In this document: one piece after another, positions 3,914 through 43,577 of the stretch | Numbering within the stretch: the stretch's first letter is position 1 | Layout of the letters: each line of letters begins with the position of its first letter | From: Catenovulum maritimum | Lineage (GTDB): Bacteria > Pseudomonadota > Gammaproteobacteria > Enterobacterales > Alteromonadaceae | Length of the DNA stretch: 64,000 bases | Assembly (NCBI RefSeq): GCF_001050375.1 | Contig: NZ_KQ130482.1 | Coordinates: 636,954-700,953 of the forward strand | Reading direction: 5' to 3' | Translations under genes and position numbers: made by a program | The notes under the pieces: generated by a model | Seen by the model: only the letters and a program-made list of their open reading frames with translations | What the model was told of the DNA's origin: nothing | Databases searched by the model: none

Positions 3914-3940
3914 ATTGGTCATAAAACAAAAAATTGACAC
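3914..3940 (-). promoter_or_regulatory. Candidate ECF sigma promoter of the sulfatase genes
   Basis: On the minus strand GTGTCA (3940-3935) is followed after 15 nt by ACCAAT (3919-3914), 37 bp before the sulfatase ATG at 3877. The same two boxes with the same spacing occur at 6550-6576, 30455-30481, 39219-39245 and 43551-43577. Confidence 0.7.
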
Positions 3941-3995
3941 AAATAATTGTATTTTGTTTACAATTATTTTGAGAGGAGTAATAAGTATTTGGAGA

Positions 3996-4028
3996 ACATA
4001 ACTGGCAAGGGCTATTTACCAGTTATGT
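3996..4028 (-). terminator. Hairpin after the FecR/CBM gene
   Basis: Arms ACATAACTGG (3996-4005) and CCAGTTATGT (4019-4028) with a 13-nt loop lie 10 bp past the FecR stop codon, between it and the sulfatase promoter. This suggests that the sigma/FecR and sulfatase units are separate transcripts. Confidence 0.55.
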
Positions 4029-4037
4029 TTTAGCTAC

Positions 4038-5939
4038 CTATTCGCTTGGTATAGCGGACAACTCAAAGTTATCGAAATGAACGACAGCACCTTCTTTCAT
4101 TAATATTTTCATCTCGAATTTTCCGTTTTCTGGTATTTTTTCTGCAGGTATTTCAATTCGCACTCTAATTAGGCCATCATCATCTACCCAATAAATACCA
4201 CGTTGATAACCGTAGCCTGCCCATTCTGGGGTGTAATAAATACCACCTGTACTGGGTACTTGCCTGAGCGCTGCTTTGCCTTCTATCACTCGCAAATCGT
4301 AAGCAAATAAATAATCCGTTTTATTATTGAGTTTATTCGTTTTAAAAGCATCGCTGGTAAATTTTATATGCATTTCACCCGTTGTGCTGTTGGCATATAA
4401 ACCATAGTTCCCTTCTATGGCAGCTTCTTCTGTTACTTGTAATATGGCAAAATTTTCTTGGCCTATTTCGCGCTGTATTGTTAAGCCTGTACCTAATACA
4501 CCGTCTTCAAATCCTCTGGTTTGCTCTTTGATAAAGTTTTCAGTCGGCAATATTTCTATCAGCTCAACGTTATCTAAATACCATTCTTCGTTAGGAGTCC
4601 AAAACGCAATTTCTACGAAGGTATGTGTATCTGGCCAATCTTGACCATGGATTACTTTTTCATGGTGTTGCCATGTATTGTCTTTTGGCATTCTAAACCA
4701 TGGGCCATGCGCTGTTGTTTGATACTTAGCGTTAAAACTGTTGTTAAACCGGGTGTAGCCTATGGCGGATTCAGCATTGTCCGTAAGGCGTTTAATGTCG
4801 TAACTGAGTTTATATTGTTTATGCTTTTTGACAAAACCGGCAGGTAAATAGGAATGTTTTATTTTTATAAACACCGGGCCTGAGTCCATCGTGCTTATGT
4901 GCAAGCCATAATTTCCTGATTTAGCCGCTTCAGGTTTAACTTCGGCATAGCCTAAACTCGTTACGTCTATTAACCAGTGGGTTAAATCCCCTGTTTCAAA
5001 ACCCATATTAAGGCCACTAACTATATTTACTGGCGTCAGTTTGTTTGTTTCTTCTCTAGGTTTTGCTTCTTGTGGTAATGCATGCCCTGAAGGTACTATT
5101 GTTTTGCTTTTGAACCTTTGCGTTTCATTGCTAGCTCGCTTATGTGTGCCGTCCAGTGAAGCTGATGTTTCAACTAACCCTTGGGCGTTAATCGTTAAAG
5201 AAAAAGGCAAATTGGGCTGACGATAAATAGGTGTGAAATCGGTTGTATCAGTAGCAGCTAAAGTTGAATTTTGATCATCTGTTACTTGTGCAACGACATA
5301 ATTTCCGTTTGCAGTACTAATGTAAAACTCTGACGATTTTGCGGCTAAATCAATGGTTAATTGCCCCTGAATAATCTCTATACGCTGTACATCATGAATG
5401 TTCAGGTGCGTTGGTGAACTTGCTGTAATTTTATTGCCATTGGTAAATTGTATATGTGCTTTACCACTGAGCATTTGAAAAGGACCCGGAGATAATTGAA
5501 ATGTTTCTATATCTGATAATTCCGAATCACCGGATGTTTTAGTATATTGTACAGTTGCAAACGCTTGAGCGGTTTCTGTATCTGTAAAAAATACTAATGT
5601 ACATAATAAAAGACTGGCTGCAACGGATATAGCTTCAAACCAATAATGTTTCTTTTGTTGTTTGTTGTTATCGCGATCACTTGGATTAATCTGACTAACA
5701 TTATCAGAAGTGGTTTGTTCGGGGTTATTTTGTTCTAACTTGATGCGCTCCATTATGCCATCGGCAAAAGCGTTAGCATTATCGTCTTTGAGTTTTAATT
5801 GCATTAGTCTATGGGTTAGTACCTGACGCGCTGACCTTTGTTTAAACTCGGGATCTTTTGACCATTCGTGTCGCAGTTCAGCTCTATTATCTTCACCTGC
5901 AATAAAGCGAGCTAAAAGTTCGTCTTGGTACTTGTTCAT
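4038..5939 (-). CDS. FecR-like anti-sigma factor with C-terminal carbohydrate-binding-like domains
   Basis: Predicted inner-membrane anti-sigma factor (633 aa) partnered with the ECF sigma factor directly upstream; the two overlap as ATGA at 5936-5939. Residues 1-100 are the cytoplasmic, sigma-binding-type region (LLARFIAGEDNRAEL). One membrane segment lies near residues 103-120. A FecR-like beta domain, rather divergent, spans about 145-220. After a Thr/Ser/Lys-rich linker come two beta-sandwich modules of CBM4/9 style, each opening with a GFE-G-L motif (GFETGDLTHW near 310, GFEDGVLGTG near 473). The outer half therefore looks built to bind a glycan. The family's usual FecR lacks such modules. 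Inference: it holds the sigma factor until an algal oligosaccharide binds outside. No TonB receptor with a signalling extension is nearby, unlike classical FecR systems. Confidence 0.82.
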   Translation of the reverse strand: MNKYQDELLARFIAGEDNRAELRHEWSKDPEFKQRSARQVLTHRLMQLKLKDDNANAFADGIMERIKLEQNNPEQTTSDNVSQINPSDRDNNKQQKKHYWFEAISVAASLLLCTLVFFTDTETAQAFATVQYTKTSGDSELSDIETFQLSPGPFQMLSGKAHIQFTNGNKITASSPTHLNIHDVQRIEIIQGQLTIDLAAKSSEFYISTANGNYVVAQVTDDQNSTLAATDTTDFTPIYRQPNLPFSLTINAQGLVETSASLDGTHKRASNETQRFKSKTIVPSGHALPQEAKPREETNKLTPVNIVSGLNMGFETGDLTHWLIDVTSLGYAEVKPEAAKSGNYGLHISTMDSGPVFIKIKHSYLPAGFVKKHKQYKLSYDIKRLTDNAESAIGYTRFNNSFNAKYQTTAHGPWFRMPKDNTWQHHEKVIHGQDWPDTHTFVEIAFWTPNEEWYLDNVELIEILPTENFIKEQTRGFEDGVLGTGLTIQREIGQENFAILQVTEEAAIEGNYGLYANSTTGEMHIKFTSDAFKTNKLNNKTDYLFAYDLRVIEGKAALRQVPSTGGIYYTPEWAGYGYQRGIYWVDDDGLIRVRIEIPAEKIPENGKFEMKILMKEGAVVHFDNFELSAIPSE

Positions 5940-6499
5940 GCCATTGTCCCGGTTAGACGTTTATCTATACAGTTGCGTAATTTTTCGCGTATTCTATGCA
6001 AGCGCATTGTCATTGCGGAATGCTTCACCTGATGTATTTTTGTTAGCTCATCTACTGTGTAGCCTTCTGTATAATGCTGCTTAATCAATTTATGAAATTT
6101 ATCATCTACTTTTTCTAAACATTGTTCGAGCGCTACTAACATTGAGTTTTCATCTTGATTGCTTAGTTTATTTTCAATTTCATCAGATAAAATCTCTTCA
6201 AAATCACTGATATCAGAATTTAAGTGGGCGTTAGAACGACGGTAAAAATCTTTTAATTGATTTAATGCTATACCTTTTATCCAAGGACTAAATGCTCTGC
6301 TGTTATCAAAGTCTTTTAGTTTTCTATGCGCAATGATAAAAGCCTCTTGCGCTAAATCGTCGGCATCAATTATGTGTTGCATTCGCACGGCTAAAAAAGC
6401 TCTGACATCATCTTGATATTTCATAATAATTTGTGCGAAAGCTGCATTATCTCCGTTTTGTGCCTTAGCAATTGTTTTTCTTTCATCGTCCGAATTCAA
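5936..6499 (-). CDS. ECF RNA polymerase sigma factor (sulfatase-side copy)
   Basis: Sigma-70 family ECF factor of about 187 aa. Region 2 holds DADDLAQEAFIIAHRKL and the FSPWIKGIALN segment; region 4 holds YTVDELTKIHQVKHSAMTMR with RIREKLRNCI. This resembles the sigma type found beside FecR/LamG proteins in Planctomycetes and Verrucomicrobia. The open frame extends to a TTG at 6511, but TTG at 6499 gives MNSDDERK, which matches the start of the paralogue at 37045 (MQDDSHL) and has GGGGTGG upstream, so I prefer it. It overlaps the anti-sigma gene by 4 bp. An element with the shared GTGTCA/ACCAAT boxes sits upstream, which suggests positive autoregulation. Identity as an ECF sigma factor is firm; the exact start is not. 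Confidence 0.88.
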   Translation of the reverse strand: MNSDDERKTIAKAQNGDNAAFAQIIMKYQDDVRAFLAVRMQHIIDADDLAQEAFIIAHRKLKDFDNSRAFSPWIKGIALNQLKDFYRRSNAHLNSDISDFEEILSDEIENKLSNQDENSMLVALEQCLEKVDDKFHKLIKQHYTEGYTVDELTKIHQVKHSAMTMRLHRIREKLRNCIDKRLTGTMA

Positions 6500-6549
6500 A
6501 GACCACCCCAATCGACAATTTGAGAAATTTGTTCGTGTTTAACATTTAT

Positions 6550-6576
6550 ATTGGTAAAAAAATTGGGTTTTGACAC
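6550..6576 (-). promoter_or_regulatory. Candidate ECF promoter of the sigma/FecR operon (autoregulatory)
   Basis: Minus-strand GTGTCA (6576-6571), 15-nt spacer, then ACCAAT (6555-6550), about 50 bp ahead of the sigma start. Identical spacing to the four other copies in the window. Confidence 0.68.
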
Positions 6577-6808
6577 ATTTATTTTTAACTATTATGCAAA
6601 TAATCAAATAACTTCAATCCATGATGTAAGTGGCAGACTAATTTTTAAGTTTTTACAATTATTTCAGGAGCTTCACAGACAGCTAACTTCTGTGGTGTAT
6701 CATCTTAAAAGTTGCTTACATTTGTGCAATGATACGCCTTAAATTGAACTGTCTTTGATAGCTCTGATACTCGCAATTTATATTGATTTAGCGCTAGATG
6801 TTGAACCA

Positions 6809-6849: not shown

Positions 6850-6880
6850 GGGCTTAAGTTTTACGAAAAACCTTACTTAA

Positions 6881-9220
6881 CTATTTTTTGTAAGCAGGAG
6901 CATCGAATTCGCCTTTAAAGCGTTTTTCATACACAGTCGACATAAATGATTTAATTGCATCTACCATTTCAGGGTATGGAATGTCAGTACTAGATACAAA
7001 ACCAACATTGTATGGTTCGCCATCAAATGCTCGGCCTGTCAGTGGCGAGTCTATATACTGGAACCAATGCGCACCAACCATATTAGGGTGAGCAGCAACA
7101 CTGGTAATGTAATCTAAATACATTTGTGCTCTGTCTTTATGGTCGTGAGCTTGTACTAAGCCTGCATGGAATACACCAGTATCGGTTGTTGAACCAATAT
7201 GGAATTCACCAATCGCAACAGGTAAGTCAAACTCGGTTAAAAAGCCCCATTCTTCAGGCTGTACACCTTCTTCATAAATATTGAATGACAATACATCAGA
7301 GTATTTAACCGAGGCTTTAATCGTCTCTTTTGGCATACCAAAGTTCGCCATACGTGCGCCCATATATAAATGGTTTGGCAAAGCTTCAGCTAAGGTATCG
7401 TGGACCACTTTAAAGTAACGATCTGACAAGGCTTCAAGCATGTAAGATAAATCAGCAACGGCTTCAGTTGAGAACGGCGCTTCTAAATGCACACCTTGTT
7501 CAATACTAGCCCAGTTTTCAGCTTTAAAATTCCAAGCTGAGTTTAGCTTTTTAATGTCTCCATATTTACCTTTTAAGTAATCTGTGAAGAAAGTTTTAGC
7601 AGGGCTGTCAGCGTTGTTAACGGTTAATGTTGCTAAAATCACCCCATATTTTTGTTCAACTGTACCTTCTGGTAATCCCCAGCTTTTTTCATTATCGACG
7701 AAAATACCTGCACACCAAGGTGAACCTTTGATTTCTTCAGCGATGACATCAATCGTAATTTTTGCGCGTCGGACAAACTCAGGATCGAAAGGATCTGGAA
7801 GTGGCGCCCAAACGTCGTGTTCAGATTTTAGGGTTTTAAAATCACCAATAATCCAACCATTGGCAAAATATGGCACTTGCTCGTTAGGATAAAATGCTGG
7901 ATCAACCCAGTTACCAAAAGAGGTAAAACCCCAATTGTTCATACGATCCAAGGTGACTTGTTGCCAAGTTTCTTCAAAATTTTCACCGTAGCGTCTTTCT
8001 AAATTTGCTCGATAAAAACTAAAGGTTTCACCTGAAGTTAATGGCCCTTTGTGTACTTCACGGCGGTAGCTATAGTGTTTAGCCATAGGGTTGTCATAAC
8101 TTGGCAACCAGTTAAACATATCATTACGTAAATCAGACGCAATATAACGTGTTTTTCTGACTTCATCAGAAACTTCTACTATGCCCATTGAATCTTCTGG
8201 CGTTACACGACTTGGGTCAATATAACGAACTGAATCATCTTTAAAATCAACACCGGTTAAAGTTGTTAAATTAGCCATGCGTACATTAGCCGGACCGTGT
8301 GAGAAGAATATATGTCCTTCTGGATCAACCATCCACCAACGGCCATCAATTTTCTCAGTTCTAAAATAACCAGTCGCTTTCAGTTTAGGACCATCTTTCC
8401 AGCCGCCGTATTTAGAGCGATTAGCCATTAGCCCGCCTTGAGCTAACTCTGCTAACTCTTTGTTAGCCACTTGCTTTAGTTCTTCGACAGATGAAACTTT
8501 TATTGGAAAATCTTGTTTAGCATTTTGACCAAACTCATCCGCTAAACCTAGGAGATAACTATCATCGTATTCGGGATTCTTACGCAACCTTAAATTTGAA
8601 ACTTCTATTTGTTTGTCATGTAAGTTACCCCTAACAAAAAGTGCGACTTCAGTAATGCGACTCAAATCGAGCTTTTTACCGAAACGGGTAACAAACATTT
8701 CTTCATCTGTTTTCCAAGGATATGGTTTTTCACGTACACCTGCATTGGTGTCGTTAAACTTACCTTTAATTATTGAAAAGTATGTACCTTGTTCACCAGC
8801 GGCTAAATTTGCGGTTCTATTTAAAGAACGCGCTCGGCTACCAGTAATTTCCATATCTTCTTTAACACCGGCTTCATCCGTTAATGATAAATAGACTTGG
8901 ATGGACTCATTGGATAAATTTTTAATATCAACGGCTAAGTTAAATTCATCAAATTTGGACCAATCCCAAGGTTTTTCCGGATGAAATTTCACAGAAGGAC
9001 GGTAGTGGTCGCTCTGATAGCTGACCTTAACAGATTTGTCTTCTAGTTGAGTTTGGGCACCCCAATTAGCAATTTCAACACCGCTGCTTTTAGAACCATT
9101 CCAAATAACCGCAAGTGGTGTGTCGGTTGTTAATGCTGGATTTTGAGTTTGTGAACTATTATTGTCACAAGCTGTTAGCAGTATTGCAGACAAAACGGCT
9201 GCAATGGGAAGTTTACGCAT
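6881..9220 (-). CDS. GH50 beta-agarase, lipoprotein (copy 1)
   Basis: Exo-type beta-agarase of family GH50, expected to cut neoagaro-oligosaccharides to neoagarobiose. The first ATG is at 9232, but the ATG at 9220 has GAGG six bases upstream and gives a clean lipoprotein signal ending ILLTAC, so I use it (779 aa). An N-terminal CBM-like beta sandwich (about 35-230) precedes the TIM barrel, which begins around WWMVDPEGHIFFSHG. Family hallmarks are NWGFTSFGNWVDPAFY, YFANGWIIGDFK, the acid/base in FVDNEKSWG (E511), the nucleophile in IGEFHIG (E672) and HWFQYIDSPLTGRAFDGE. The 161-residue gap between the two glutamates matches that in Saccharophagus Aga50D (E534/E695). It lacks the ECF promoter element seen before GH50-2. 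It probably sits in the outer membrane. Confidence 0.95.
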   Translation of the reverse strand: MRKLPIAAVLSAILLTACDNNSSQTQNPALTTDTPLAVIWNGSKSSGVEIANWGAQTQLEDKSVKVSYQSDHYRPSVKFHPEKPWDWSKFDEFNLAVDIKNLSNESIQVYLSLTDEAGVKEDMEITGSRARSLNRTANLAAGEQGTYFSIIKGKFNDTNAGVREKPYPWKTDEEMFVTRFGKKLDLSRITEVALFVRGNLHDKQIEVSNLRLRKNPEYDDSYLLGLADEFGQNAKQDFPIKVSSVEELKQVANKELAELAQGGLMANRSKYGGWKDGPKLKATGYFRTEKIDGRWWMVDPEGHIFFSHGPANVRMANLTTLTGVDFKDDSVRYIDPSRVTPEDSMGIVEVSDEVRKTRYIASDLRNDMFNWLPSYDNPMAKHYSYRREVHKGPLTSGETFSFYRANLERRYGENFEETWQQVTLDRMNNWGFTSFGNWVDPAFYPNEQVPYFANGWIIGDFKTLKSEHDVWAPLPDPFDPEFVRRAKITIDVIAEEIKGSPWCAGIFVDNEKSWGLPEGTVEQKYGVILATLTVNNADSPAKTFFTDYLKGKYGDIKKLNSAWNFKAENWASIEQGVHLEAPFSTEAVADLSYMLEALSDRYFKVVHDTLAEALPNHLYMGARMANFGMPKETIKASVKYSDVLSFNIYEEGVQPEEWGFLTEFDLPVAIGEFHIGSTTDTGVFHAGLVQAHDHKDRAQMYLDYITSVAAHPNMVGAHWFQYIDSPLTGRAFDGEPYNVGFVSSTDIPYPEMVDAIKSFMSTVYEKRFKGEFDAPAYKK

Positions 9221-9350
9221 TTTGGACCTCATTTAATCTATTTTGTTTTAAATTTATTAGGGATTGATAACTTCCTAGCTATGCTGTTTGTAAAATCATT
9301 TACAAACACCTAAAGGATACATTTACTTTTCATTAACCCTTTTTGTTAAG

Positions 9351-13697: not shown

Positions 13698-15044
13698 TTA
13701 GTAATAACAACGGTATTTTGATTTATCGCCGTTAGGATCTATTTGTTTGTATAGCGCTAGTGTGAAGCTATCAGGTTTTGGCATAATTAAAAAACACTGT
13801 GCGAGTTCACTGCGGTCTTCTTTAATGATTAGTGGCATTAAATCTTCAATTGCTTGTGCGTATTTATCATCACCATAGCGTTGATAAGCATATTGTAAGA
13901 AATAGTATAAACGGCCGCGGCGCATCTTTTTATCTTTAACATTTGCCCAATAACCTTCTTTTTTTATCGCTGGTAGTAAAAAGTCGATTGCTGTTTTTAA
14001 GCTGACACCGTTATCGATTTTATATTGCCAATAATCTAAGCCTAGTTTATCAGCGATCAGTGCAGCGAAATAGTAAGCTTCTAAATTGAACACTGAGTAG
14101 TGGAGAGGCCGAGTGCGTGCTAACTCATCTGGTTGCGCACCGGATGGTTCAACCTGTTTGCTTAATCTGTGTTTAAAGATTCGCTCGACATATTCTTTCG
14201 CTAATTTTTTGTTACCTGTATAAAGCGCATAGGCTGCGACTTGAGCTTCGCAATAGGTGCCATGGTTATTATGAGCATCACAAGCGCCTTGGCCTAATTC
14301 ATTTGTCAGTAACCAATTAAGATAATCACTTACCCATGCTTTAAACTTCAGTTCGTCCTGCTGAGAAAAGTGCGCTGAGTTGGTTAATAGTGTTACTTCA
14401 TCAATTAATCTAATAAACCAACGCGTTTCAATTACACCATAGATACGACCATCACTTTTACCTGGCACTGCTTGACCAAAAGTGAGTGAGGGATTCATAC
14501 GGGTTCCAGGGTTTAAAAACCAATTTTTGATATGAAGGGCTGCATGTTTAGCGTATTTTTCATCTTTTGTATAATAGTAGGCTAATGTTAAATCACTAAT
14601 TTGAAATAGCATTTCATTCATGATCGTTTTATCTGTGCCACCCGTCGAACTGGTTGGATTTACTTTGCCATCGCGTTTAATCCAAGGTAAGCCATCTGCT
14701 TTAGTCGGATCAGGCCACCAGTATGGGCCGATGCTAATGTAATCGTGTTTATCTCCGCTTGGCGGTGTGTGCGATTTATCCATAACAGAATAAGGCCCTT
14801 TAGTAAGTGCTTCATCTGCATGTGATATTAAGCGCTTAACCACTAATTGCCGGACAGGCTCGCCTTGAACATAATCTTGATAGCTATTATCTAGCCAATT
14901 AGAATCAAGATAAACTAAGCTAGATTTATTTGTTGAAGTTGGCGAAACAGCTGATTGTGAGTCTTTTACTGTCTGTTGGCAGCCACTAATCCCAATTGTC
15001 AAACCTAAGATCGAAGCAAGTAATGATGTACGCATCATTGGCAT
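13698..15044 (-). CDS. Alginate-lyase superfamily polysaccharide lyase (PF05426-like), lipoprotein
   Basis: 448-aa exported protein with a lipoprotein signal ending TIGISGC. The sequence matches the (alpha/alpha) toroid alginate lyase superfamily: YWWPDP at residues 108-113, a Gly/Asp-rich segment near GTDKTIMNEM, RWFIRLIDEV, and the His/Asn motif DAHNNHGTYC near residue 255 that carries likely catalytic residues. Length is normal for PL38/PL5-like members. Substrate cannot be read from sequence: alginate, glucuronan or another uronic-acid polymer. In a red-algal galactan locus its role is unclear. ATG at 15044 has AGG seven bases upstream. It follows GH86 on the same strand, but a hairpin separates them. 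Confidence 0.78.
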   Translation of the reverse strand: MPMMRTSLLASILGLTIGISGCQQTVKDSQSAVSPTSTNKSSLVYLDSNWLDNSYQDYVQGEPVRQLVVKRLISHADEALTKGPYSVMDKSHTPPSGDKHDYISIGPYWWPDPTKADGLPWIKRDGKVNPTSSTGGTDKTIMNEMLFQISDLTLAYYYTKDEKYAKHAALHIKNWFLNPGTRMNPSLTFGQAVPGKSDGRIYGVIETRWFIRLIDEVTLLTNSAHFSQQDELKFKAWVSDYLNWLLTNELGQGACDAHNNHGTYCEAQVAAYALYTGNKKLAKEYVERIFKHRLSKQVEPSGAQPDELARTRPLHYSVFNLEAYYFAALIADKLGLDYWQYKIDNGVSLKTAIDFLLPAIKKEGYWANVKDKKMRRGRLYYFLQYAYQRYGDDKYAQAIEDLMPLIIKEDRSELAQCFLIMPKPDSFTLALYKQIDPNGDKSKYRCYY

Positions 15045-30454: not shown

Positions 30455-30481
30455 GTGTCACCTTTGTTAACTGAAAACAAT
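30455..30481 (+). promoter_or_regulatory. Candidate ECF promoter of the GH16-to-FecR operon
   Basis: GTGTCA (30455-30460), 15-nt spacer, AACAAT (30476-30481), 48 bp before the GH16 ATG. The 21 bases after GTGTCA align closely with those of the GH50-2 promoter (CCTTT...ACT.AAAACAAT), so these two sites look recently duplicated or strongly conserved. Confidence 0.72.
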
Positions 30482-31827: not shown

Positions 31828-31841
31828 AGCGGGTGTTGGTT

Positions 31842-33539: not shown

Positions 33540-34761
33540 ACAAACTGATTTTCCATGGGAGATTCCACAAACCAAACCAGACAGGCCGTTAAGCAAAGCT
33601 ATGGCGCGTATGTACGACGAGTATCAAACGCCGCGGCCAGAAGATAATAGTTTGTTCAGTAGTTTTAAATATACTCAACTACAAGGTTTTGATTATCGTG
33701 ATGGCGACGGCACAGTGTCGCGTCGCGATCCTTCAAAAATTATTCGAGTAAATGGCTTGTACTATGTGTGGTATACCAAGCGCGACACCCAAACACCACC
33801 GCAAGGGCCTGAAAGGTGTAGCGATACAATACCATCAACCGATTGGGATTTAGCCGAAATTTGGTATGCAACCAGTCAAGATGGTTTTAGTTGGCAAGAG
33901 CAAGGTTGTGCTATTAAACGCCCAGCCAAACCTCAGCTAGGTTGGCGCTCGGTTTCAACGCCCGATATTTTAGTCTGGCAAGGTAAATACTATTTGTACT
34001 ATCAAGCTTTTATGCAAGCCAGTGGCATAAAAGGCGATCATTGTCCTGTTACTTTGTCGTCTGCGGACAGCCCAGATGGCCCATGGACGCCTTGCAACAA
34101 AATAGTAGTTCAAAACGGCCCTGCAGGCAGTTGGGATCAATTTTCAATTCACGATCCATACTTGTTGGTCTACCAAGGCAAAATCCACTTATATTACAAA
34201 GCTGCTTTTGGTGACAGGCCTGAATACTTGGTTGCAAACGGCCTTGCAATTGCTGACAACCCAATGGGGCCTTTTAATAAACATCCATTAAACCCAGTGC
34301 TCAACTCAGGGCACGAAACCACCTATTTTCCGTTTAAACAGGGCATAGCAGCTTTGGCTATTCGTAATGGTAACGAAAACAATACCATTCAATTTGCACC
34401 TGATGGGGTTAATTTTTCCATAGCGTCTGTTACTTCTCTCATGCCTGTTGCGGCAGGGCCATATGTAGCTGATGCCTTTAACAATACTGAAAGTGGCCAA
34501 GGGATAGAGTGGGGCTTATCGCATTTTTGTGACAAAACCGACCCAAGCACTAAACACAGCTTTTTAGGCAGGTTCGACTGCAACTTAATCCAAAACGCTA
34601 ACAACACAGATATGAAAGAAACCGATGTGATTCATCATCCAAGTGTGTATTTCGCCCAAGGTTTATCTGAAAAGCAAAAAATACAGCGTCAACAAGCTGC
34701 CCAAGAGGGTAAACAAAAGAGTGAACAAAAGAGTGAACAAAAGAGTAAAAATGCATGTTAG
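33526..34761 (+). CDS. GH117-like alpha-1,3-(3,6-anhydro)-L-galactosidase, cytoplasmic
   Basis: About 411 aa with no signal peptide, so it acts inside the cell. The propeller motifs match GH117 neoagarobiose hydrolases: SRRDPSK (D68, the likely base), DWDLAEIWYATSQDGFSW, VSTPDILVWQGKYYLYYQ, FSIHDPYLL (D210), NPVLNSGHETTYFP (H263/E264) and GIEWGLSH. ATG at 33526 with GAGGG just upstream is preferred over the GTG at 33520; the start lies inside the symporter gene. A short run of KSEQ repeats ends the protein (three SEQK-like units near 34720-34745). It would split imported neoagarobiose into galactose and 3,6-anhydro-galactose. A non-agar GH117 subgroup cannot be excluded. Confidence 0.88.
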   Translation: MNKPKQTDFPWEIPQTKPDRPLSKAMARMYDEYQTPRPEDNSLFSSFKYTQLQGFDYRDGDGTVSRRDPSKIIRVNGLYYVWYTKRDTQTPPQGPERCSDTIPSTDWDLAEIWYATSQDGFSWQEQGCAIKRPAKPQLGWRSVSTPDILVWQGKYYLYYQAFMQASGIKGDHCPVTLSSADSPDGPWTPCNKIVVQNGPAGSWDQFSIHDPYLLVYQGKIHLYYKAAFGDRPEYLVANGLAIADNPMGPFNKHPLNPVLNSGHETTYFPFKQGIAALAIRNGNENNTIQFAPDGVNFSIASVTSLMPVAAGPYVADAFNNTESGQGIEWGLSHFCDKTDPSTKHSFLGRFDCNLIQNANNTDMKETDVIHHPSVYFAQGLSEKQKIQRQQAAQEGKQKSEQKSEQKSKNAC

Positions 34762-37040
34762 TAGAAAGTTTTAGCCCACAAACAAGAACCAATAACAAAC
34801 TACAGATTACTACAGATTTTGTGGTAGTGGGTGGTGGACTTGCCGGTGTGTGTGCTGCGATTGCTGCAGCGCGTAATGGCAGTAAAGTTGTATTAATTCA
34901 AGACAGGCCTGTATTAGGCGGCAACGCTTCTAGCGAAGTGCGAGTTTGGGCATTGGGCGCAACCTCGCATATGGGCAATAATAATAGATGGTCTCGTGAA
35001 GGTGGGATTATTGACGAAATTATGTTGGAAAACCTAAAGGTGAACAAAGACGGTAATCCAATTATATTTGACGCTGTATTGTTAGATAAGGTCGCGGCAG
35101 AGCCGAATATTCAATTACTGCTTAATACTGCGGTTTACCTAGTGAATAAATCAGCTGAGCGTAAAATTGGCAGTGTTGTTGCTTTTTGTAGTCAAAATTC
35201 AACTGAATACACAGTTTCAGCCCCGTTGTTTTGTGATGCAACGGGCGATGGTTTAGTTGCTTTTAATGCGGGGGCAAGTTTTAGAATTGGCGCTGAATCG
35301 CGTGATGAATTTGGCGAGCAACTTGCACCAGTGCAAGCAAGCGATCAACTGTTAGGGCATACGCTGTTTTTTTACAGTAAAAAGCTAGATCATCCAGTTA
35401 AATATATCGCCCCAAAATTTGCTTATACACATCAACAAATTAGCGCAATTCCACGCTCTAAAAATATTCAAGGCAGTGATTCAGGCGTTAAATTTTGGTG
35501 GGTTGAATACGGCGGTATACACAACACAATTACGCAAACAGAAGAAATTAAATGGGAATTATGGAAAATTGTTTACGGCATTTGGGACTACATTAAAAAC
35601 AGCGGCAAATTTGAAGATGTTGAAAACCTAACTTTAGAATGGATAGGTACAGTACCAGGTAAACGCGAAAGTCGCCGTTTTAATGGCGAATATATGCTTA
35701 AACAGCAAGATATAGTGGAACAAACTCAGTTTGCCGATGCTGTTTCTTATGGTGGCTGGGCGATTGATATTCATCCATCAGAAGGCATTTATAGTGATAA
35801 ACCAGCCTGTTCGCAATTTCACTCCAAAGGCGTTTATCAAATTCCATATCGTTGTTTTATTAGCAAAGACATAGATAATTTATTTTTTGCTGGGCGTAAT
35901 ATCAGTGCTAGCCATATGGCCTATGGTTCAAGCCGAGTGATGATAACTTGTGCTCATGGTGGTCAAGCTGTTGGTACTGCCGCTGCATTGTGCAAACAAA
36001 ATAGTATTAGTCCTAAAAGCATGTTAAACCCAGAATATATGCATAGTTTGCAACAGCAACTGAATATGTTTGGCCATGGCATACCAAATGTGCCTTTAGC
36101 GCAGCAAACTAATTTGGCTAAACAAGCACGAATCTCAGCCAGCAGCGAACTCGAATTAAAACAATTATTGCCAAGTGGTGAATATATACCTTTAACGCAA
36201 GGTTGCGCCCAACTTATGCCGTTTAATCAAGGCATGGCACCTGTAATGAAACTTAAAGTTAAAGCACAAACTGAAACTCAGTTAAAAGTTGCTTTAAGAG
36301 TCAGTGTAAAAGCTGAAAATTACACCCCAGAAATTGACTTAAAAACCATAGAGCTAAACCTAGTTGCGGGTGAACAAACAATCACGCTTGATTTTTCTAG
36401 TGTAGAAATTGCCGCTCAGTATGGTTTTGTTACTTTTTACCCAAATGCGGCGATTGAACTGGCTATATCCGAGCAGCGAGTCACGGGTTTTATGCCTGTA
36501 TTTAACAAGATGCACAAAGCGGTATCTAATACGGGTAAACAAACTATGCCTGTAGAGTCAGGAATCGAGAGTTTTGAATTTTGGACGCCAGAACGTCGAC
36601 CAAAAGGGCAAAACTTAGCTTTGCAATTTGAACCTGCATTCAAGCTGCATCCGCTGTCACATATAACAAATGGTTATCTGCGCCCGTGGAAGCAAAGCAA
36701 TACTTGGGCTGCAAGTTTTAATGACAAACACCCACAAGTAAAGTTTTGCTGGCCTGAACCTGTCAATATTAACCAAATAACTCTATTCTTTGATACAGAT
36801 AGCGACCATGCGTTAGAAACAGTATTAATGCTGCACCCAGAAAGTGAAATGCCGTACTGTGTGCAAAATTATCGAATAAAACAGGCTGATGGCACTACAT
36901 TGCTTGAAGTGGTAGGAAATTATCAAACCGTTAATAAACATACATTAGCGCAAGCAATTCAAGTAGATGAACTTGTGTTTGAATTTGACCAGCCAAGCGA
37001 TTTAGTGCCAGCGAGTTTATTTCAAATAGAGATCCACTAG
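34755..37040 (+). CDS. FAD-dependent oxidoreductase (PF12831-like) with C-terminal beta domain
   Basis: 761-aa cytoplasmic protein. The N-terminal Rossmann motif VVVGGGLAGVCAAIAA (about 23-38) binds FAD and is followed by LGGNASSEVRVWALGATSH, the family's second signature. The C-terminal region (about 620-760; WKQSNTWAASFNDKHPQVKF) looks like a discoidin-type sandwich. Members of this family occur often beside glycoside hydrolases in Bacteroidetes and Planctomycetes loci, but their substrate is not known. The gene overlaps the GH117 gene by 7 bp and is followed 4 bp later by the sigma gene, so it is part of the operon; oxidation of a sugar released by GH117 is a fair guess. Confidence 0.82.
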   Translation: MLVESFSPQTRTNNKLQITTDFVVVGGGLAGVCAAIAAARNGSKVVLIQDRPVLGGNASSEVRVWALGATSHMGNNNRWSREGGIIDEIMLENLKVNKDGNPIIFDAVLLDKVAAEPNIQLLLNTAVYLVNKSAERKIGSVVAFCSQNSTEYTVSAPLFCDATGDGLVAFNAGASFRIGAESRDEFGEQLAPVQASDQLLGHTLFFYSKKLDHPVKYIAPKFAYTHQQISAIPRSKNIQGSDSGVKFWWVEYGGIHNTITQTEEIKWELWKIVYGIWDYIKNSGKFEDVENLTLEWIGTVPGKRESRRFNGEYMLKQQDIVEQTQFADAVSYGGWAIDIHPSEGIYSDKPACSQFHSKGVYQIPYRCFISKDIDNLFFAGRNISASHMAYGSSRVMITCAHGGQAVGTAAALCKQNSISPKSMLNPEYMHSLQQQLNMFGHGIPNVPLAQQTNLAKQARISASSELELKQLLPSGEYIPLTQGCAQLMPFNQGMAPVMKLKVKAQTETQLKVALRVSVKAENYTPEIDLKTIELNLVAGEQTITLDFSSVEIAAQYGFVTFYPNAAIELAISEQRVTGFMPVFNKMHKAVSNTGKQTMPVESGIESFEFWTPERRPKGQNLALQFEPAFKLHPLSHITNGYLRPWKQSNTWAASFNDKHPQVKFCWPEPVNINQITLFFDTDSDHALETVLMLHPESEMPYCVQNYRIKQADGTTLLEVVGNYQTVNKHTLAQAIQVDELVFEFDQPSDLVPASLFQIEIH

Positions 37041-37044
37041 CTAA

Positions 37045-37599
37045 ATGCAAGACGATAGTCATTTAATTTTACAAGCACGCAATGGCGACATGCAGGCTTA
37101 TGCAACTATTGTAGAACGTTACCAAAGTAGCATTCGTGCCTGTTTGCGTATGCGTTTGCATGAGCCATCTGAGGCTGAAGATTTAACTCAAGAAACCTTT
37201 ATTCTTGCGTTTAATAAATTAGATGAATTTGATGAAAGCCGCCCAGTAGATGCGTGGCTACGCGGTATTGCCATTAACTTGCTTAGAAATTACCTACGCA
37301 AACATAAACCCATAAGTGTCGGTAGCCATGCAGAGCTTGAAACATTAGTTAACCAGCAGCTTGATACCGAATATTCACAAGGGCAAGAAGTAGCCAGCGT
37401 TGCAGCACTTAAAGATTGTATGACTCAGTTAAATGAAAAAACGCATGAGCTGGTTAATCAGCATTATAAACAAGGGTTTTCAATTGCCGAGCTTACTAAA
37501 AAACATGGGGTAGGTCATTCGGCTATGACCATGCGTATGTTTCGTATACGAGAGAAATTGCGTGACTGCATAGAAAAAAATCTCAAGGAGTATTGTTAA
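37045..37599 (+). CDS. ECF RNA polymerase sigma factor (GH16-operon copy)
   Basis: 184-aa ECF sigma factor, a paralogue of the one at 5936-6499. Region 2: AEDLTQETFILAFNKLDEF and VDAWLRGIAIN; region 4: FSIAELTKKHGVGHSAMTMR, with RIREKLRDCIEK closing the protein. It starts 4 bp after the FAD oxidoreductase gene and its TAA shares a base with the ATG of the FecR gene (TAATG). Placement as fifth gene of the operon driven by the 30455 element makes a positive feedback loop likely. Confidence 0.92.
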   Translation: MQDDSHLILQARNGDMQAYATIVERYQSSIRACLRMRLHEPSEAEDLTQETFILAFNKLDEFDESRPVDAWLRGIAINLLRNYLRKHKPISVGSHAELETLVNQQLDTEYSQGQEVASVAALKDCMTQLNEKTHELVNQHYKQGFSIAELTKKHGVGHSAMTMRMFRIREKLRDCIEKNLKEYC

Positions 37600-39158
37600 T
37601 GAATCAATCCAAAAGCTTGAGTAAAGAACAGCGCAGGTTAATCGCGGCTTATCTAGCAGGCGAAGAGGTGAGTGATGAGTTGTTAAATGAATGCCATAAA
37701 CACCCTGAAGTTAAACAAGCCATAGCAAAATTAGTTGGCACAGACAGATTAATTCAGCTTTCGTTAGAAACGGAAAACCACCAAACTGTTAATTCAGTCA
37801 TGCAGCGAATTAGCCAGCAGCAGTCAGTTAAACAACAAGCGGTTAAAGCAAAGGTTATTCGCCCTTGGTTTAAATCTCAAATGGCGTTTGCGGCCAGCGT
37901 GGCCGCTATAGTTATGCTGTTTTTTATCAGTAGCTTCATTTCCGTTCAAAACAATTTAGGAGTAGTAACTAAGGTAGCAGCGGTGTCACAAACAAGTGAA
38001 CTTTCTTTGGGTAAACTCCTGCATAAAGGCAAAATTTCTTTAGAGCAAGGTTACAGTGAAGTTGTAATGGACAATGGGGTGATATTAGTTTTAGAAGCGC
38101 CCATTGAATTGAACATTCGATCGGAAAATTTGGTCATTTTAGAAAAGGGCAAGCTGGTTGCTAAAGTACCGCCACAAGCCATTGGCTTTAGAGTCGACAC
38201 CCCAAGCTCAGAAATAATTGATTTAGGCACTGAATTTGCGGTTGATGTAAACGAGCAAGGTGAAAGCCAAGTGCACGTATTGGATGGCGAAGTTAAAGCG
38301 CGTGCATCAAAACAACAAGCTTTTAAAATGCTTAAAAAAGACCAAGCGCTTGCTTTTAGTTTGGATGAAAAAATAAAAATAATTCAAAGCAGTCCAAATT
38401 TATTTATGCGCGCTTTGCCGGGCAAATCAGCGGTTAATCCTGATTATTTACATTGGTCTTTTGACCAAAATCAGGCTGGGCAATTTGCCTCTAGCGGCAA
38501 AGGAATAGTAGGGCAACATTACCCTGCATATGACAAAACCGAAGCCGGACAGATAAGCCAAGTCGCGGGTGTTTTTGCCAATGCCATTGCATTAGATGGT
38601 CGCGCTAATTGGCTAGAAACGGAATTTCCGGGTATTTCCGGTGATGCCCCGCGCACAGTTAGTTTTTGGGTAAAAGTGCCACAAGATATCGGCAGGCATG
38701 AAGTATTTGGTATTGTCAGTTGGGGCACACAAGAGTTTTATTCTGCATGGCAAATATCGCCAAATCCATTCCCTCAAAATGGACCAATTGGTGCGCTGAG
38801 AATTGGTACTTACAATGCCCAAGTGGTTGGTACGCGTGATTTAAGAGATGGGCAATGGCATCATGTTGCAGTGGTTTTGTATGGCGGTGAAGCGTCAGAC
38901 ATATCAACCCATGTACTCATGTACGTAGATGGTGAATTAGAAAAAACCAATGGTAAGTCGGTGGCTAAAGTAAATACCAAAATCAGCCAAAATAACTCAC
39001 GGCCATTGTCGCTAGGGCGCAATATTGGTTATACCGCAGCACATGAAAAAGATAAATTTTTTAGAGGTGCAGTGGATGAGTTATACGTGTTTGACGCTGC
39101 ACTAGAGCAAAAACATATTCGACAATTGATGAAAAATAACCGATTTTTAGATAAGTAA
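37599..39158 (+). CDS. FecR-like anti-sigma factor with C-terminal LamG-like domain
   Basis: About 519 aa. AAGGAG eight bases upstream supports the ATG at 37599, which overlaps the sigma stop. The N-terminal cytoplasmic part (AAYLAGEEVSDELLNE) is followed by one membrane segment near 90-112 (FAASVAAIVMLFFISSF). A canonical FecR domain follows (about 140-250; EIIDLGTEFAVDVNEQGES, HVLDGEVKA). A concanavalin/LamG-like fold covers about 284-519 (HWSFDQNQAG, RTVSFWVKVP, DGQWHHVAVVLYGG, DGELEKTNGK). FecR-LamG proteins beside ECF factors are typical of Planctomycetes and Verrucomicrobia. The outer LamG domain is the candidate glycan sensor. Confidence 0.88.
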   Translation: MNQSKSLSKEQRRLIAAYLAGEEVSDELLNECHKHPEVKQAIAKLVGTDRLIQLSLETENHQTVNSVMQRISQQQSVKQQAVKAKVIRPWFKSQMAFAASVAAIVMLFFISSFISVQNNLGVVTKVAAVSQTSELSLGKLLHKGKISLEQGYSEVVMDNGVILVLEAPIELNIRSENLVILEKGKLVAKVPPQAIGFRVDTPSSEIIDLGTEFAVDVNEQGESQVHVLDGEVKARASKQQAFKMLKKDQALAFSLDEKIKIIQSSPNLFMRALPGKSAVNPDYLHWSFDQNQAGQFASSGKGIVGQHYPAYDKTEAGQISQVAGVFANAIALDGRANWLETEFPGISGDAPRTVSFWVKVPQDIGRHEVFGIVSWGTQEFYSAWQISPNPFPQNGPIGALRIGTYNAQVVGTRDLRDGQWHHVAVVLYGGEASDISTHVLMYVDGELEKTNGKSVAKVNTKISQNNSRPLSLGRNIGYTAAHEKDKFFRGAVDELYVFDAALEQKHIRQLMKNNRFLDK

Positions 39159-39218: not shown

Positions 39219-39245
39219 GTGTCATTTGCAAAGGGATTTACCAAT
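39219..39245 (+). promoter_or_regulatory. Candidate ECF promoter of the deleted sulfatase
   Basis: GTGTCA (39219-39224), 15-nt spacer, ACCAAT (39240-39245), 40 bp before the ATG. Kept intact although the gene it drives has lost its middle. Confidence 0.68.
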
Positions 39246-39284: not shown

Positions 39285-39878
39285 ATGACAAAATTACAAT
39301 TAAAAACATTGGTATTATTTGCTTGCGTGCTGAGTTTATGCGCTTGCAGTTTAAAAAAATTAGAAGAAAAGTCAGAAATTAACCCGCTTGCGACAAGCAA
39401 ATTGCCGCCAAACATACTCTGGATTGTTACAGACGATCACCGACCTGATTCTATCAATGCCTATAACCGAGCAGTTTATAAACAAAATGACAGTCCACTT
39501 GGTTATGTTGAGTCACCCAATACAGATAAATTAGCCGCCGAAGGTATTTTATTCACCAATGCCTTTACCGATTCACCCGTATGTGCACCTTCTCGTGCGG
39601 CAATGCACTCTGGTCGATACCCATTTCGGCACAGTCGCTTGGCATTGTATGACTTATCAATAGACTCGCTCGAGCGCAATAACCTAGCTTACCAAACTCA
39701 ATATACAGAACTCGCACAATGGATTAGGCACAAGCTTGGCAACATAGTTTTGGGTGACGGGCGGATTGAAGCTGACTGGTCCCAAGAAAACCATTATGTA
39801 GTATCCAATATCGCCAAAGGAGCTGACGATAAAAAATTAGATATACCAGCACATTTAATCAACAACTTACCGCGATAA
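39285..39878 (+). CDS. S1 sulfatase with large in-frame internal deletion, lipoprotein
   Basis: 197-aa open frame. It has a lipoprotein signal (LSLCAC), [14 protein letters not shown], the catalytic signature SPVCAPSR and GRYPFRHSR. It then jumps straight to the C-terminal part [19 protein letters not shown] and GDGRIEADW. Comparison with the sulfatases at 1-1796 and 1950-3877 shows that about 400 central residues, including GDH and HTPVLPPK metal and substrate regions, are gone, with the frame kept at about 39640-39650. It cannot be an active sulfatase. The start and end match the broken sulfatase at 1950 closely, so it is a paralogue of that gene. Its ECF-type promoter is intact. Confidence 0.85.
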
Positions 39879-40470: not shown

Positions 40471-40503
40471 ATAAAATCTTTGTATTCTATAAAAGGACAG
40501 GTA

Positions 40504-41076
40504 ATGTACAAAATTTTTATGTGCTCGCTTTTTATTTTATTTTTGAGTAAGGCATTCGCAGGAGAAGTTAAGCGAGGGGATGATTTATCTCTAGAAAAAT
40601 TTGAGTACATTTTAAGTAAGAGTATGTCTAAATTACCTAAACTGTGGAGTGTAATTGATCAAATCACGAATCAAGACGTAAATATCTATATAACACCTAT
40701 TGAAAAAGGTTTGGGTAAAGCAAGAGGTAAGAACTCAATCTATATTGCCCCTCGTGCATTTATACATGATTTAAAGGCTTATCCTGAAGATAGGTTGATA
40801 GTTGTACTTTTACATGAGTACGGACATATTCTTTTTAATAGGCAATCTAATCGTAAAAGTAATAATAAAGCTGAACATGAGTACGCTGCTTTTAAATACT
40901 CAGTGCAGCATGCCCTTCGTATTGCAGAAAAAGGAGATAGTGGACCAATTAGACAATTAGTACATTATCTTCCATTAAGGGTTCAAAATGGTAAAAAATC
41001 CGATCCTCATACAATAGCTTTAAAAAAATTAACTAAAGAAAATTTTTGGTCGGACGTGCTATCAAAGTATCAATAA
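40504..41076 (+). CDS. Exported HExxH putative zinc metallopeptidase
   Basis: About 190 aa from the ATG at 40504 (GGACAGG upstream; an in-frame ATG at 40480 would put eight residues before the signal). Signal peptide MYKIFMCSLFILFLSKAFA. The only diagnostic motif is LLHEYGHILFN with H104, E105 and H108, followed by EHEYAAFKYSVQHAL, where E or H could be the third zinc ligand. I do not recognise the family. Isolated gene with no clear tie to the polysaccharide genes. Confidence 0.6.
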   Translation: MYKIFMCSLFILFLSKAFAGEVKRGDDLSLEKFEYILSKSMSKLPKLWSVIDQITNQDVNIYITPIEKGLGKARGKNSIYIAPRAFIHDLKAYPEDRLIVVLLHEYGHILFNRQSNRKSNNKAEHEYAAFKYSVQHALRIAEKGDSGPIRQLVHYLPLRVQNGKKSDPHTIALKKLTKENFWSDVLSKYQ

Positions 41077-41238
41077 AATTATTACTAACACTTATAAAGT
41101 CTCTATTATTGTGGCCGTGGCAATCGCGTATAAAATGGGTGAGCCAGCCACGATTTGACTGGTGAACTATATGTCTAATGGTTTAACCAATAGATTTATT
41201 GATTATTTATCACTAAATGGTTAGCCACCCATTTGATG

Positions 41239-43521
41239 CTATAAACCATATCTACGTTGGTAAATATTTTCATTCAATTCTTTAGCTGCATCTACCAAAG
41301 GCTGGTATGGAATGTCCGCCACATTTACAAACCCTACGTTGTAGTTTTCACCATCGTAAGCTCGGCCTGTTAGCGGCGAGTCGATGTATTGAAACCAATG
41401 TGCGCCCACAAAATAGGGGTTGTCGATTACACTGTACATGTATTCTTGATATTTTTTACCGCGATCAGTCTGATTGGTTGCATGGATAAGCCCTGGGTTA
41501 AATAAACCTGAGTCCATTGCGCCGTTATGGAATTCGCCAATAATGCTGGGTTTGTCTAGCTCTTCTAATATTTGCCAATACGGTTGGTCGATTCCTTCAC
41601 GGTAGTAGTTATAGCTCACTACATCTAACCATTTGGCTGCGGCTTTTCTTGACTCAGGTGTCATTGCCCAATGGGCGAATCTAGGCCCCATGTACATATG
41701 GTTTGGCATATATTGCTCGAGTAACTCAGCTACAACACTAAAATATTTATCGGCATAATTGTACGAAAGGGTCGATAAATCTTGTTTCATTGGCTCGGTT
41801 ATTTTGTTTATTGTATATGGCGCTTCTAATGTTTGCCACGATGCAAACTGACTATTCCAAGCTTGGTTTAACGCTTCTATGTTTTGATATTTGGCTTTTA
41901 ATGTTGCAACAAAGTTTTGTTTAATTGGGCTTTGCGATGCTTGTTTAGTGAAAGCATTTATTGCAATGCCGAATTGAGCAGTCGCGCCCCAATCTGCGCC
42001 CCAGCTTTTTTCGTTGTCGATAAATACACCAACGCACCAAGGATTATTTTGCACTTCATCCGCTATTTGTTTAACCGTTACTTCGGCGCGTGTTGCAAAT
42101 ACAGGATCAAATACATCCGGCATTGCGCCCCAATAGTCATTACCTGAGCTGACTGTTTTAAAGTCGCCAATAATCCAACCATTGGCAAAATAGGGTAGGC
42201 GATTAAGCTGGTAATAACTTGGGTCTACCCAATTACCAAATGAGGTGAAGCCCCAGGTATGCATACGTTTAATTGTAGTATCGCGCCATTTTTCCATCAG
42301 TAAAGCTTCATCATTGGTTTCGTATTTTCTGGCTAAGTTGGCGCGATAAAAACTATAGGTTTCACCATGTTTAATTGCACCTGAGTGTACTTCACGTCTG
42401 TATCCAAAGCTTGCAGCTTCGTCACTTTGGTAACTAGGTAACCAAGTAAACATATTGGCGCGAGTTTCTGAACTCACATAGCGGCTGGAAATTGCGTTAT
42501 CGGGTGCTCGGTTTAAGCCAATTGAATCTTCAGGCGTATAGTCTTTTGCATCTCTTTGTTTAATTAATTTTTTATCAAAGTCGTAGCCGGTAATGGTTGA
42601 GGTGTTAGCCATGCGGATGTTGGCGATGCCATTTGAGAAAAATAAATAACCTTCAGGGTCTACAATCGACCATTTGCCTTGATATTTTTCAGTGCGATAA
42701 AAACCTGTGGCTTTTAGTTTGGGGCCGTCAGCCCAACCGTTAAATTTTGAACGAGAAGGCAGTGGATGGTCGACTAAACTTTGCTGCTCTTGTTGACTAA
42801 ATTTTTGTAGCTCTGCCACAGAATGGACTTTGCGCACAAATTTTTGTTTGGCGTTTTGGCCAAATTTATCCACTATGCCAGTTAAAAAGTTCTCATCATA
42901 TTGTTTAGGTTCAACAACTTTTATGTTGTCAATTTCTAACGTTTTGTCTTCGAGTACACCTGATATCAAAAATCTTATTTTACTAATCGCGCTGGTATCT
43001 GGTTGTTTTACCCCACCGCGCCAAATAGTTTGCACATAATCATGTTGCCAGCTCGGCGGGTTATTGCGAATACCTGAGTTAACTTGTAAACCTAAGCTTT
43101 TTAGTTCAATTAAATAGCTGTTGTTGCTATTGGCGGGTATCACTACGTTACGCAGCTGAAAGGCATTATTTGCATCATAAGTGTAGATATAAACATGAGT
43201 GGATGTAGCACTTGGGTTTTTAATATCAAGTGCAATCGCTGCATTTTGATATTGGCTGAAATTCCAAGGCGTTTTAGGCTGAACGGTAAAAGAGGCATCG
43301 TGATTATTTTTTGATTCTAGTTTGATCTCGAGTGCATTCCCCTGTGAACTTTGTATCATCTTAGCATCAGCGTTTTCCAGTAAAATTATATGTTTGTCAG
43401 TCTCATCTTCAAAATCTATTAATGATAAATGTGAATGCTGACTTGTGCTTGGGTTACTGCACGCGGATATCGCTAATGTGAGAATAATGGGTGCAATTGC
43501 CTTGATTGAATTTAGTTTCAT
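41239..43521 (-). CDS. GH50 beta-agarase, lipoprotein (copy 2)
   Basis: 760-aa paralogue of the GH50 at 6881. Lipoprotein signal LAISAC; N-terminal CBM-like sandwich to about 210; TIM barrel with WSIVDPEGYLFFSNG, WGFTSFGNWVDPSYY, YFANGWIIGDFK. The acid/base is E504 in FIDNEKSWG and the nucleophile E663 in IGEFHNG; HWFQYIDSPLTGRAYDGE follows. AGGAG five bases before the ATG confirms the start. Unlike GH50-1 it has the ECF-type promoter, nearly identical to that of the GH16 operon, so the two agarases are probably under different control. Confidence 0.95.
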   Translation of the reverse strand: MKLNSIKAIAPIILTLAISACSNPSTSQHSHLSLIDFEDETDKHIILLENADAKMIQSSQGNALEIKLESKNNHDASFTVQPKTPWNFSQYQNAAIALDIKNPSATSTHVYIYTYDANNAFQLRNVVIPANSNNSYLIELKSLGLQVNSGIRNNPPSWQHDYVQTIWRGGVKQPDTSAISKIRFLISGVLEDKTLEIDNIKVVEPKQYDENFLTGIVDKFGQNAKQKFVRKVHSVAELQKFSQQEQQSLVDHPLPSRSKFNGWADGPKLKATGFYRTEKYQGKWSIVDPEGYLFFSNGIANIRMANTSTITGYDFDKKLIKQRDAKDYTPEDSIGLNRAPDNAISSRYVSSETRANMFTWLPSYQSDEAASFGYRREVHSGAIKHGETYSFYRANLARKYETNDEALLMEKWRDTTIKRMHTWGFTSFGNWVDPSYYQLNRLPYFANGWIIGDFKTVSSGNDYWGAMPDVFDPVFATRAEVTVKQIADEVQNNPWCVGVFIDNEKSWGADWGATAQFGIAINAFTKQASQSPIKQNFVATLKAKYQNIEALNQAWNSQFASWQTLEAPYTINKITEPMKQDLSTLSYNYADKYFSVVAELLEQYMPNHMYMGPRFAHWAMTPESRKAAAKWLDVVSYNYYREGIDQPYWQILEELDKPSIIGEFHNGAMDSGLFNPGLIHATNQTDRGKKYQEYMYSVIDNPYFVGAHWFQYIDSPLTGRAYDGENYNVGFVNVADIPYQPLVDAAKELNENIYQRRYGL

Positions 43522-43550
43522 ATAAACTCCTATTGTTCTTTGTATACAAT

Positions 43551-43577
43551 ATTGTTTTGAGTGAGAAAAGGTGACAC
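43551..43577 (-). promoter_or_regulatory. Candidate ECF promoter of GH50-2
   Basis: Minus-strand GTGTCA (43577-43572), 15-nt spacer, AACAAT (43556-43551), 30 bp before the ATG. Just downstream is a TTGTATACAA palindrome (43539-43548). Confidence 0.72.

Follow-up and report, generated by a model that had tools for sequence, protein, structure and literature searches.

Five elements of the form GTGTCA-N15-AMCAAT (M being A or C) lie upstream of polysaccharide-degradation and regulatory genes in a stretch of 64,000 nucleotides from Catenovulum maritimum (contig NZ_KQ130482.1, positions 636,954 to 700,953), referred to here as the window. Judged from their sequence and position, these boxes are very probably the -35 (GTGTCA) and -10 (AMCAAT) promoter elements of extracytoplasmic function (ECF) sigma factors whose genes also belong to this locus. 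The locus is of the agar/porphyran type and includes a glycoside hydrolase (GH) of family 16, Agarase_CBM proteins called GH50, porphyranase domains, sulfatases, and a sodium:solute symporter (SSF).

Boxes in the window and in related genomes

The five boxes were first listed in a preliminary description, whose coordinates and strands proved correct throughout, with no mismatch to the motif and identical spacing (Table 1). Five exact matches in 64 kb compare with an expectation of 0.04, and none of 100 dinucleotide shuffles reached five. In the complete genome (4,547,332 bases, 47 contigs), the genome-wide search proposed in that description returned the same five exact matches only, all within the window, versus one for a reversed-pattern control. 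Occurrence at a random rate, named there as an outcome that would speak against a regulon, is thus far from what is observed. All five boxes are directed at a gene start 29 to 50 bases away. The 30 to 55 bases given earlier therefore stand as a short, consistent leader in five of five cases, with box 5 falling just below the range at 29. For box 2 the distance is 38 bases to the first TTG of the sigma-1 gene, or 50 to a likelier TTG that follows GGGGTGG.

The signal resides in the exact motif, as no excess remains when two mismatches are allowed (15 matches in the window versus 13.95 expected). The looser pattern DTGTCA-N15-RMCAAY matches the genome 14 times, including the five boxes, versus 19 times in the control. 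Since this is at or below the control, only chance is seen outside the window, and no further regulon members are claimed.

The sigma factors of the locus belong to one clade. With sigma-1 as query, E-values below 1e-30 were obtained in 11 of 295 genomes of the family, the window's own genome included (with scoring limited to 11 candidates in each genome). When 16 clade sigmas were combined into a profile, values below 1e-70 were obtained in three of 394 genomes of the order, namely the own genome, G050, and G372, the last being a clade member from another family; the best value elsewhere was 5.1e-27. Among 369 genomes of the class, only the own genome matches at that level, followed by a value of 5.3e-27. 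The unusual stretch (H/Y)S(A/T/L)(M/I/L)TMR, which we take to be the -35 recognition helix from knowledge of ECF sigmas, is common to all 19 aligned clade sigmas and is also present in the sigma of G372. Three distant sigmas with FecR-like partners (G224, G238, and G199) have a different sequence at this helix. Around them, GTGTC-N17-MCA has three matches, within chance and each inside an open frame.

Boxes accompany this clade in related genomes. A sigma-1 orthologue with an upstream box is present in Catenovulum agarivorans DS-2 (G177), of the same genus as the window's genome, with ACCAAT, and in G193 with AACAAT, the box being seen at loci L006 and L067. L006 and L065 are one locus of G177 and were counted once. 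The operon running from GH16 to sigma-2 carries a box in seven other genomes (G177, G138, G158, G134, G193, G085, and G372), with the variant CACAAT in G193 and G085. In G372, outside the family, GTGTCA and AACAAT precede the GH16 operon with a spacer one base shorter, and GTGTCA and CACAAT precede a GH50 gene. Orthologues of GH50-2 (73-85% identity) are boxed in G158, G177, G138, and G085, and so are less similar GH50 genes (46%), with AACAAC in G134 and CACAAT in G372. A GH2 gene is boxed in G193, with an AACAAC variant in G224. Boxed sulfatases comprise three in G177 and, in G050, one with an exact box plus variants; in L066, a GCCAAT box precedes a relative of sulfatase 2. Several targets are distant from the sigma genes: GH50-2 in G177 lies about 41 kb off, and GH50-2 in G138, GH2 in G193, and a sulfatase in G050 are located on another contig. 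Boxes distant from any sigma gene are what a regulon predicts.

In G158 (L077, 3251-3446), the sequence past the GH16 box differs from its G138 counterpart, and the gene lies farther away, at 169 bases, as would follow from an insertion in the leader.

Counting exact matches across 16 genomes gave 47. Eleven genomes with the sigma clade hold 31: 20 upstream of polysaccharide-locus or sigma genes, and 11 within open frames. The five genomes without the clade hold 16, of which 15 lie inside open frames, one precedes an unrelated gene of 148 amino acids, and none precedes a polysaccharide gene. An open frame here means at least 120 or at least 80 amino acids, depending on the scan, so some are short. 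The 20 counted promoters include five (sigma-1 in G177 and G193, GH16 in G177, GH50-2 in G138 and G158) that fall within the longest open frame or abut its start; they were kept in the count since homology to the window protein places the start downstream of the box. Among GH50 genes untied to sigmas, picked as two sets of 20 from a longer list, a box was found at none of 20 in 18 clade-less genomes; in clade genomes GTGTCA was found at two of 20, and the second box in register at none.

Outside the window, around the clade sigmas and with a third pair of the own genome included, GTGTC(A/G) in sense orientation precedes 26 of 33 gene starts of polysaccharide utilisation locus (PUL) type versus 10 of 102 others (Fisher p 1.2e-13, the orthologues not being independent). 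Five of these ten belong to oxidoreductase (3), GH2 (1), and GH117-like (1) genes. In antisense orientation, GTGTC(A/G) is found at 5 of the 33 PUL-type starts. When sites in the relatives were chosen by gene class and GTGTCR only, (A/C)CA stood precisely 16 bases downstream of GTGTCR in 22 of 26, and any other distance occurred at most four times. Locus L065 and the outgroup-sigma loci L082-L084 were dropped from both counts, and L081 of the own genome from the spacing count as well. Both counts excluded gene starts with an upstream gap of less than 25 bases, genes below 150 amino acids, and genes lying no more than 200 bases from a stretch end.

The ECF regulon proposed in the preliminary description is therefore supported by the targets in relatives, some far from sigma genes, by the fixed spacing, and by the link to one sigma clade. 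Where that description envisaged a single regulon, two sigmas rather than one could read the boxes.

Sigma and anti-sigma pairs and the proposed circuit

Both sigma-1 and sigma-2 have the layout of ECF sigmas, which is a protein of some 180-200 amino acids with no sigma-70 regions besides 2 and 4, with region 2 scoring 49.5 and 52.1 bits (cutoff 24) and TIGR02937 78.5 and 74.3 bits (cutoff 42.9). TIGR02989, the Rhodopirellula/Verrucomicrobium sigma family (Sig-70_gvs1), is the nearest named NCBIfam model, yet both score below its cutoff of 124.55, sigma-1 with 115.5 and sigma-2 with 119.8 bits. Eight further clade sigmas, including the third paralogue of the own genome, were scanned with this model, and one reached the cutoff (128.4).

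Each sigma gene overlaps a downstream gene for a putative anti-sigma, whose product has one hydrophobic segment near residue 100. For anti-sigma-2, the FecR domain (PF04773) scores 34.2 bits (cutoff 24), and the LamG domain likewise exceeds its cutoff. Anti-sigma-1 itself has no FecR hit and no Pfam hit of weight. Its domain labels were taken from seven aligned relatives, in which all scores are below cutoff: FecR in one (13.6), RseA_N in three (best 21.1, cutoff 24), and CBM_4_9 in three (best 23.0, cutoff 25.9). Within its C-terminal part, one half can be aligned with the other at 28% identity over 82 residues. AlphaFold models have a low mean predicted local distance difference test score, 36.7 for anti-sigma-2 (one sequence) and 40.0 for anti-sigma-1 (two sequences), and no convincing match emerged when solved structures were searched with anti-sigma-1 or with its alignment.

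Both sigma operons have a predicted promoter of their own, box 2 for sigma-1 and box 3 for the operon of GH16, symporter, GH43/117-like enzyme, and oxidoreductase, of which sigma-2 and anti-sigma-2 are the last two genes. Thus, both sigma genes stand behind a box. This second pair is absent from the earlier list of genes served.

The proposed circuit consists of two paralogous sigmas of one clade, each co-encoded with what is predicted to be a single-pass membrane anti-sigma. The periplasmic part of the latter would end in lectin-like domains, two CBM4/9-like repeats in anti-sigma-1 and a LamG domain in anti-sigma-2. Agar or porphyran oligosaccharides reaching the periplasm may change the anti-sigma or cause its cleavage, and the released sigma would then guide RNA polymerase to the boxes. 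As a result, the GH16-symporter-GH117-like-oxidoreductase operon, GH50-2, and the sulfatases would be upregulated. With one box at sigma-1/anti-sigma-1 and another at the operon ending in sigma-2/anti-sigma-2, the circuit would be self-amplifying through two positive-feedback loops. Once the ligand is exhausted, the co-made anti-sigma would turn it off. The TonB receptor of the window has a plug and a barrel and, in Pfam, no STN signalling domain. As far as this one receptor is concerned, direct sensing by the anti-sigma therefore seems likelier than surface signalling of the Fec type.

Searching the genome contigs with sigma-1 as the only query gave a single locus. Contig C16 (L081) encodes a third sigma/FecR pair belonging to the clade, in an oxidoreductase-sulfatase operon. 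GTGTCA lies upstream of it, with ACATAA one base closer than the second block of the boxes, and the pair possibly represents a separate promoter specificity. GTGTCA-N16-ACATW has three matches in the own genome versus six in the control; since its register is one base off that of the C16 box, this count is no test of the third pair.

Alternative readings and known systems

Several findings weigh against the boxes being ECF promoters of this locus. The Pfam region-4 matches of both sigmas are below cutoff. Within the window, no box precedes GH50-1, the alginate-lyase-family gene, or the porphyranase-domain gene; the regulon thus takes in only part of the locus, and another regulator must act on these genes. 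One of the 20 counted promoters, a sulfatase box in G177, lies 332 bases before the longest open frame (L065 3507-3533, corresponding to L006 16099-16125), an unusually long leader. No exact box precedes any polysaccharide-locus or sigma gene in G049, and G224 has no exact match. GTGTC is missing from 7 of the 33 PUL-type starts, for example at the sigma gene of G049b, and the second block is absent at the set distance from 4 of the 26 GTGTC sites, two of which have it one base closer. In G238, a solitary GTGTCA with no second box is found some 200 bases before the distant-sigma operon. Across relatives, GTGTC hardly varies and the -10 block does: ACAAT and CCAAT occur in the main group, whereas G049, G193b, and G224 have ACATA or ACATT, G050b has ACAAA, and G112b has ACACC. 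Finally, the non-independence of orthologous promoters inflates the statistics and leaves the p-values rough.

The boxes could instead be the binding site of an ordinary transcription factor, with no promoter function. The LytTR response regulator beside GH50-2 would be a candidate, as it is encoded with a kinase in the same locus and the fixed spacing would equally fit a dimeric regulator. However, the element has neither dyad symmetry nor direct repetition, and the window boxes all point the same way with a short leader. Moreover, no LytTR match stands beside a sigma locus in the other 12 genomes searched, and the boxed genomes G085 and G138 keep only LytTR relatives of 34-45%. The boxes track the sigma clade instead of LytTR, which makes this reading improbable. 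Even less credible is a chance likeness, or one ancestral promoter copied along with duplicated genes. Such copying would account for GTGTCACCTTT, common to the GH16 and GH50-2 boxes, and for the two sulfatases being paralogues, but between gene classes the spacers are otherwise dissimilar while both blocks are constant, the boxed targets come from unrelated gene families, and the five boxes of the window far exceed chance expectation.

Within the ECF promoter reading, a tentative refinement is that the two sub-types are separate promoters, sigma-1 reading ACCAAT at the sulfatases and at its own gene, and sigma-2 reading AACAAT at GH50-2 and at the GH16 operon that includes it. The box before sigma-1 is indeed ACCAAT in the window and in DS-2, and (A/C)ACAAT is found upstream of the GH16-sigma-2 operon in eight genomes. 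Of the three genomes that have a sigma-1 orthologue, two carry CC-type boxes at PUL genes; the nine other clade genomes looked at have none there, a confinement by which the split is only suggested. On the other hand, these are two genomes only, the sigma-1 orthologue of G193 carries AACAAT, a GCCAAT box adjoins sigma-2 in G177, and the GH16 operons of G224 and G050 have GACATT and AACAAA. The sub-type also tracks the target gene class. The sigma tree, in which 10 of 19 inner branches are open, is too poorly resolved to back the split, and no claim is made that the -10 type follows sigma phylogeny.

To our knowledge, sensing of algal polysaccharides and the switching of the corresponding loci are less well described in gammaproteobacteria than in Bacteroidetes. 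FecI/FecR-type regulation pairs an ECF sigma gene with a neighbouring gene for a FecR-domain membrane regulator. Anti-sigma-2, a predicted FecR-domain membrane protein next to an ECF sigma, resembles this arrangement (for FecR, see PMC7406223). The window differs in its TonB receptor, in the added LamG- and CBM-like domains, and in its polysaccharide targets.

A functional parallel is provided by SigI/RsgI of Clostridium thermocellum. According to PMC6056542, several paralogous sigmas, usually in operon with a membrane anti-sigma, are autoregulated and have polysaccharide-degrading targets, and one promoter part is common to the paralogues while another differs. RsgI factors sense different substrates, according to PMC12203970. 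Paralogous sigmas with putative anti-sigma partners recur in the window, together with putative autoregulation, probable polysaccharide targets, and predicted part-shared promoters. In contrast, SigI-C replaces sigma-4 and discrimination lies mainly in the -35 element in SigI (PMC6056542), whereas the window sigmas are ECF sigmas that share GTGTC and vary in the -10 element. A SigI-C model was found neither among the Pfam hits nor among the best 25 of 82 and of 87 NCBIfam hits, and the window sigmas are not assigned to SigI. Given the different protein families and the Gram-negative host, the circuit would work alike without being related. It is a rather doubtful proposal that it represents an independently arisen Gram-negative counterpart of SigI/RsgI, in which marine gammaproteobacteria would sense red-algal galactans via lectin-bearing anti-sigmas, and paralogous ECF sigmas sharing a -35 element would separate agar-backbone and sulfate-removal branches by one or two -10 bases.

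ECF41 sigmas, according to PMC3426412, have a -35 element TGTCACA resembling GTGTCA, a spacer of about 16, a -10 element CGTC, COE targets, and a fused C-terminal regulatory extension. The window sigmas, of 184 and 191 amino acids, end shortly after region 4 with no extension and are paired with AMCAAT, which sets them apart from ECF41. No description of this sigma/anti-sigma box system was found in the open-licence papers searched. The locus provides a concrete proposed circuit with two sigma/anti-sigma pairs, along with a promoter code that can be searched for and a set of probable direct targets whose conservation extends across genera. Two questions thereby become testable: whether anti-sigmas with lectin domains sense glycans in Gram-negative bacteria, and whether paralogous ECF sigmas can share a -35 element and separate by the -10 element.

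Genes of the locus

Table 1. Boxes, genes, and encoded products in the window (positions within the 64,000 nucleotides)
Feature	Position	Strand	Details
Box 1	3914..3940	-	GTGTCA-N15-ACCAAT, upstream of sulfatase 1; 36 bases to ATG at 3877
Box 2	6550..6576	-	GTGTCA-N15-ACCAAT, upstream of sigma-1/anti-sigma-1; putative autoregulation
Box 3	30455..30481	+	GTGTCA-N15-AACAAT, upstream of GH16 operon; 47 bases to start codon
Box 4	39219..39245	+	GTGTCA-N15-ACCAAT, upstream of sulfatase 2; 39 bases to start
Box 5	43551..43577	-	GTGTCA-N15-AACAAT, upstream of GH50-2; 29 bases to start
Sigma-1	5936..6511	-	ECF sigma factor; 191 aa when counted from the first TTG; Pfam Sigma70_r2 49.5 bits; TIGR02989 115.5 bits
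Anti-sigma-1	4038..5939	-	633 aa; N-terminus similar to RseA_N, hydrophobic segment ~101-119, part with weak similarity to FecR, two CBM4/9-like repeats (labels from relatives, below cutoff)
Sigma-2	37045..37599	+	ECF sigma factor, 184 aa; Sigma70_r2 52.1 bits; TIGR02989 119.8 bits
Anti-sigma-2	37593..39158	+	521 aa; hydrophobic segment ~98-116; Pfam FecR 34.2 bits, Laminin_G_3 65.2 bits (LamG lectin-like)
GH16 glycoside hydrolase	30529..31827	+	first operon gene; Pfam Glyco_hydro_16 57.3 bits
Sodium:solute symporter (SSF)	31833..33539	+	GH16 operon
GH43-superfamily enzyme, called GH117-like	33520..34761	+	Pfam Glyco_hydro_43 41.9 bits
FAD-dependent oxidoreductase	34755..37040	+	Pfam FAD_oxidored 323.1 bits
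GH50-2, agarase-like enzyme	41239..43521	-	Pfam Agarase_CBM 254.2 bits; GH50 label from the preliminary description
Sulfatase 1, frameshifted	1950..3877	-	frameshift near A-run at about 3650
Sulfatase 2, internally deleted	39285..39878	+	197 aa
GH50-1	6881..9232	-	no box
Alginate-lyase-family gene	13698..15044	-	no box
Porphyranase-domain gene	15349..17751	-	no box
LytTR response regulator	43711..44472	-	
LytTR response regulator and sensor kinase	43711..45615	-	adjoin GH50-2
TonB receptor	51595..54648		plug and barrel

The GH117 label of the third product of the GH16 operon is our presumption. Sulfatase 2 was rightly described earlier as the deleted sulfatase: compared with its relative of 635 amino acids in L066, the N- and C-terminal parts and the box are kept, and most of the middle is gone. 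Sulfatase 1, whose frameshift is absent from that account, is not intact either. With both sulfatases damaged, the window's three ACCAAT boxes include only one that serves intact genes, the box at sigma-1/anti-sigma-1. A close relative of sulfatase 1 is encoded in a single open frame in L006 (12591-14519), matching at 92% over 563 amino acids, and the frameshift in the window may be caused by an assembly error in the A-run.

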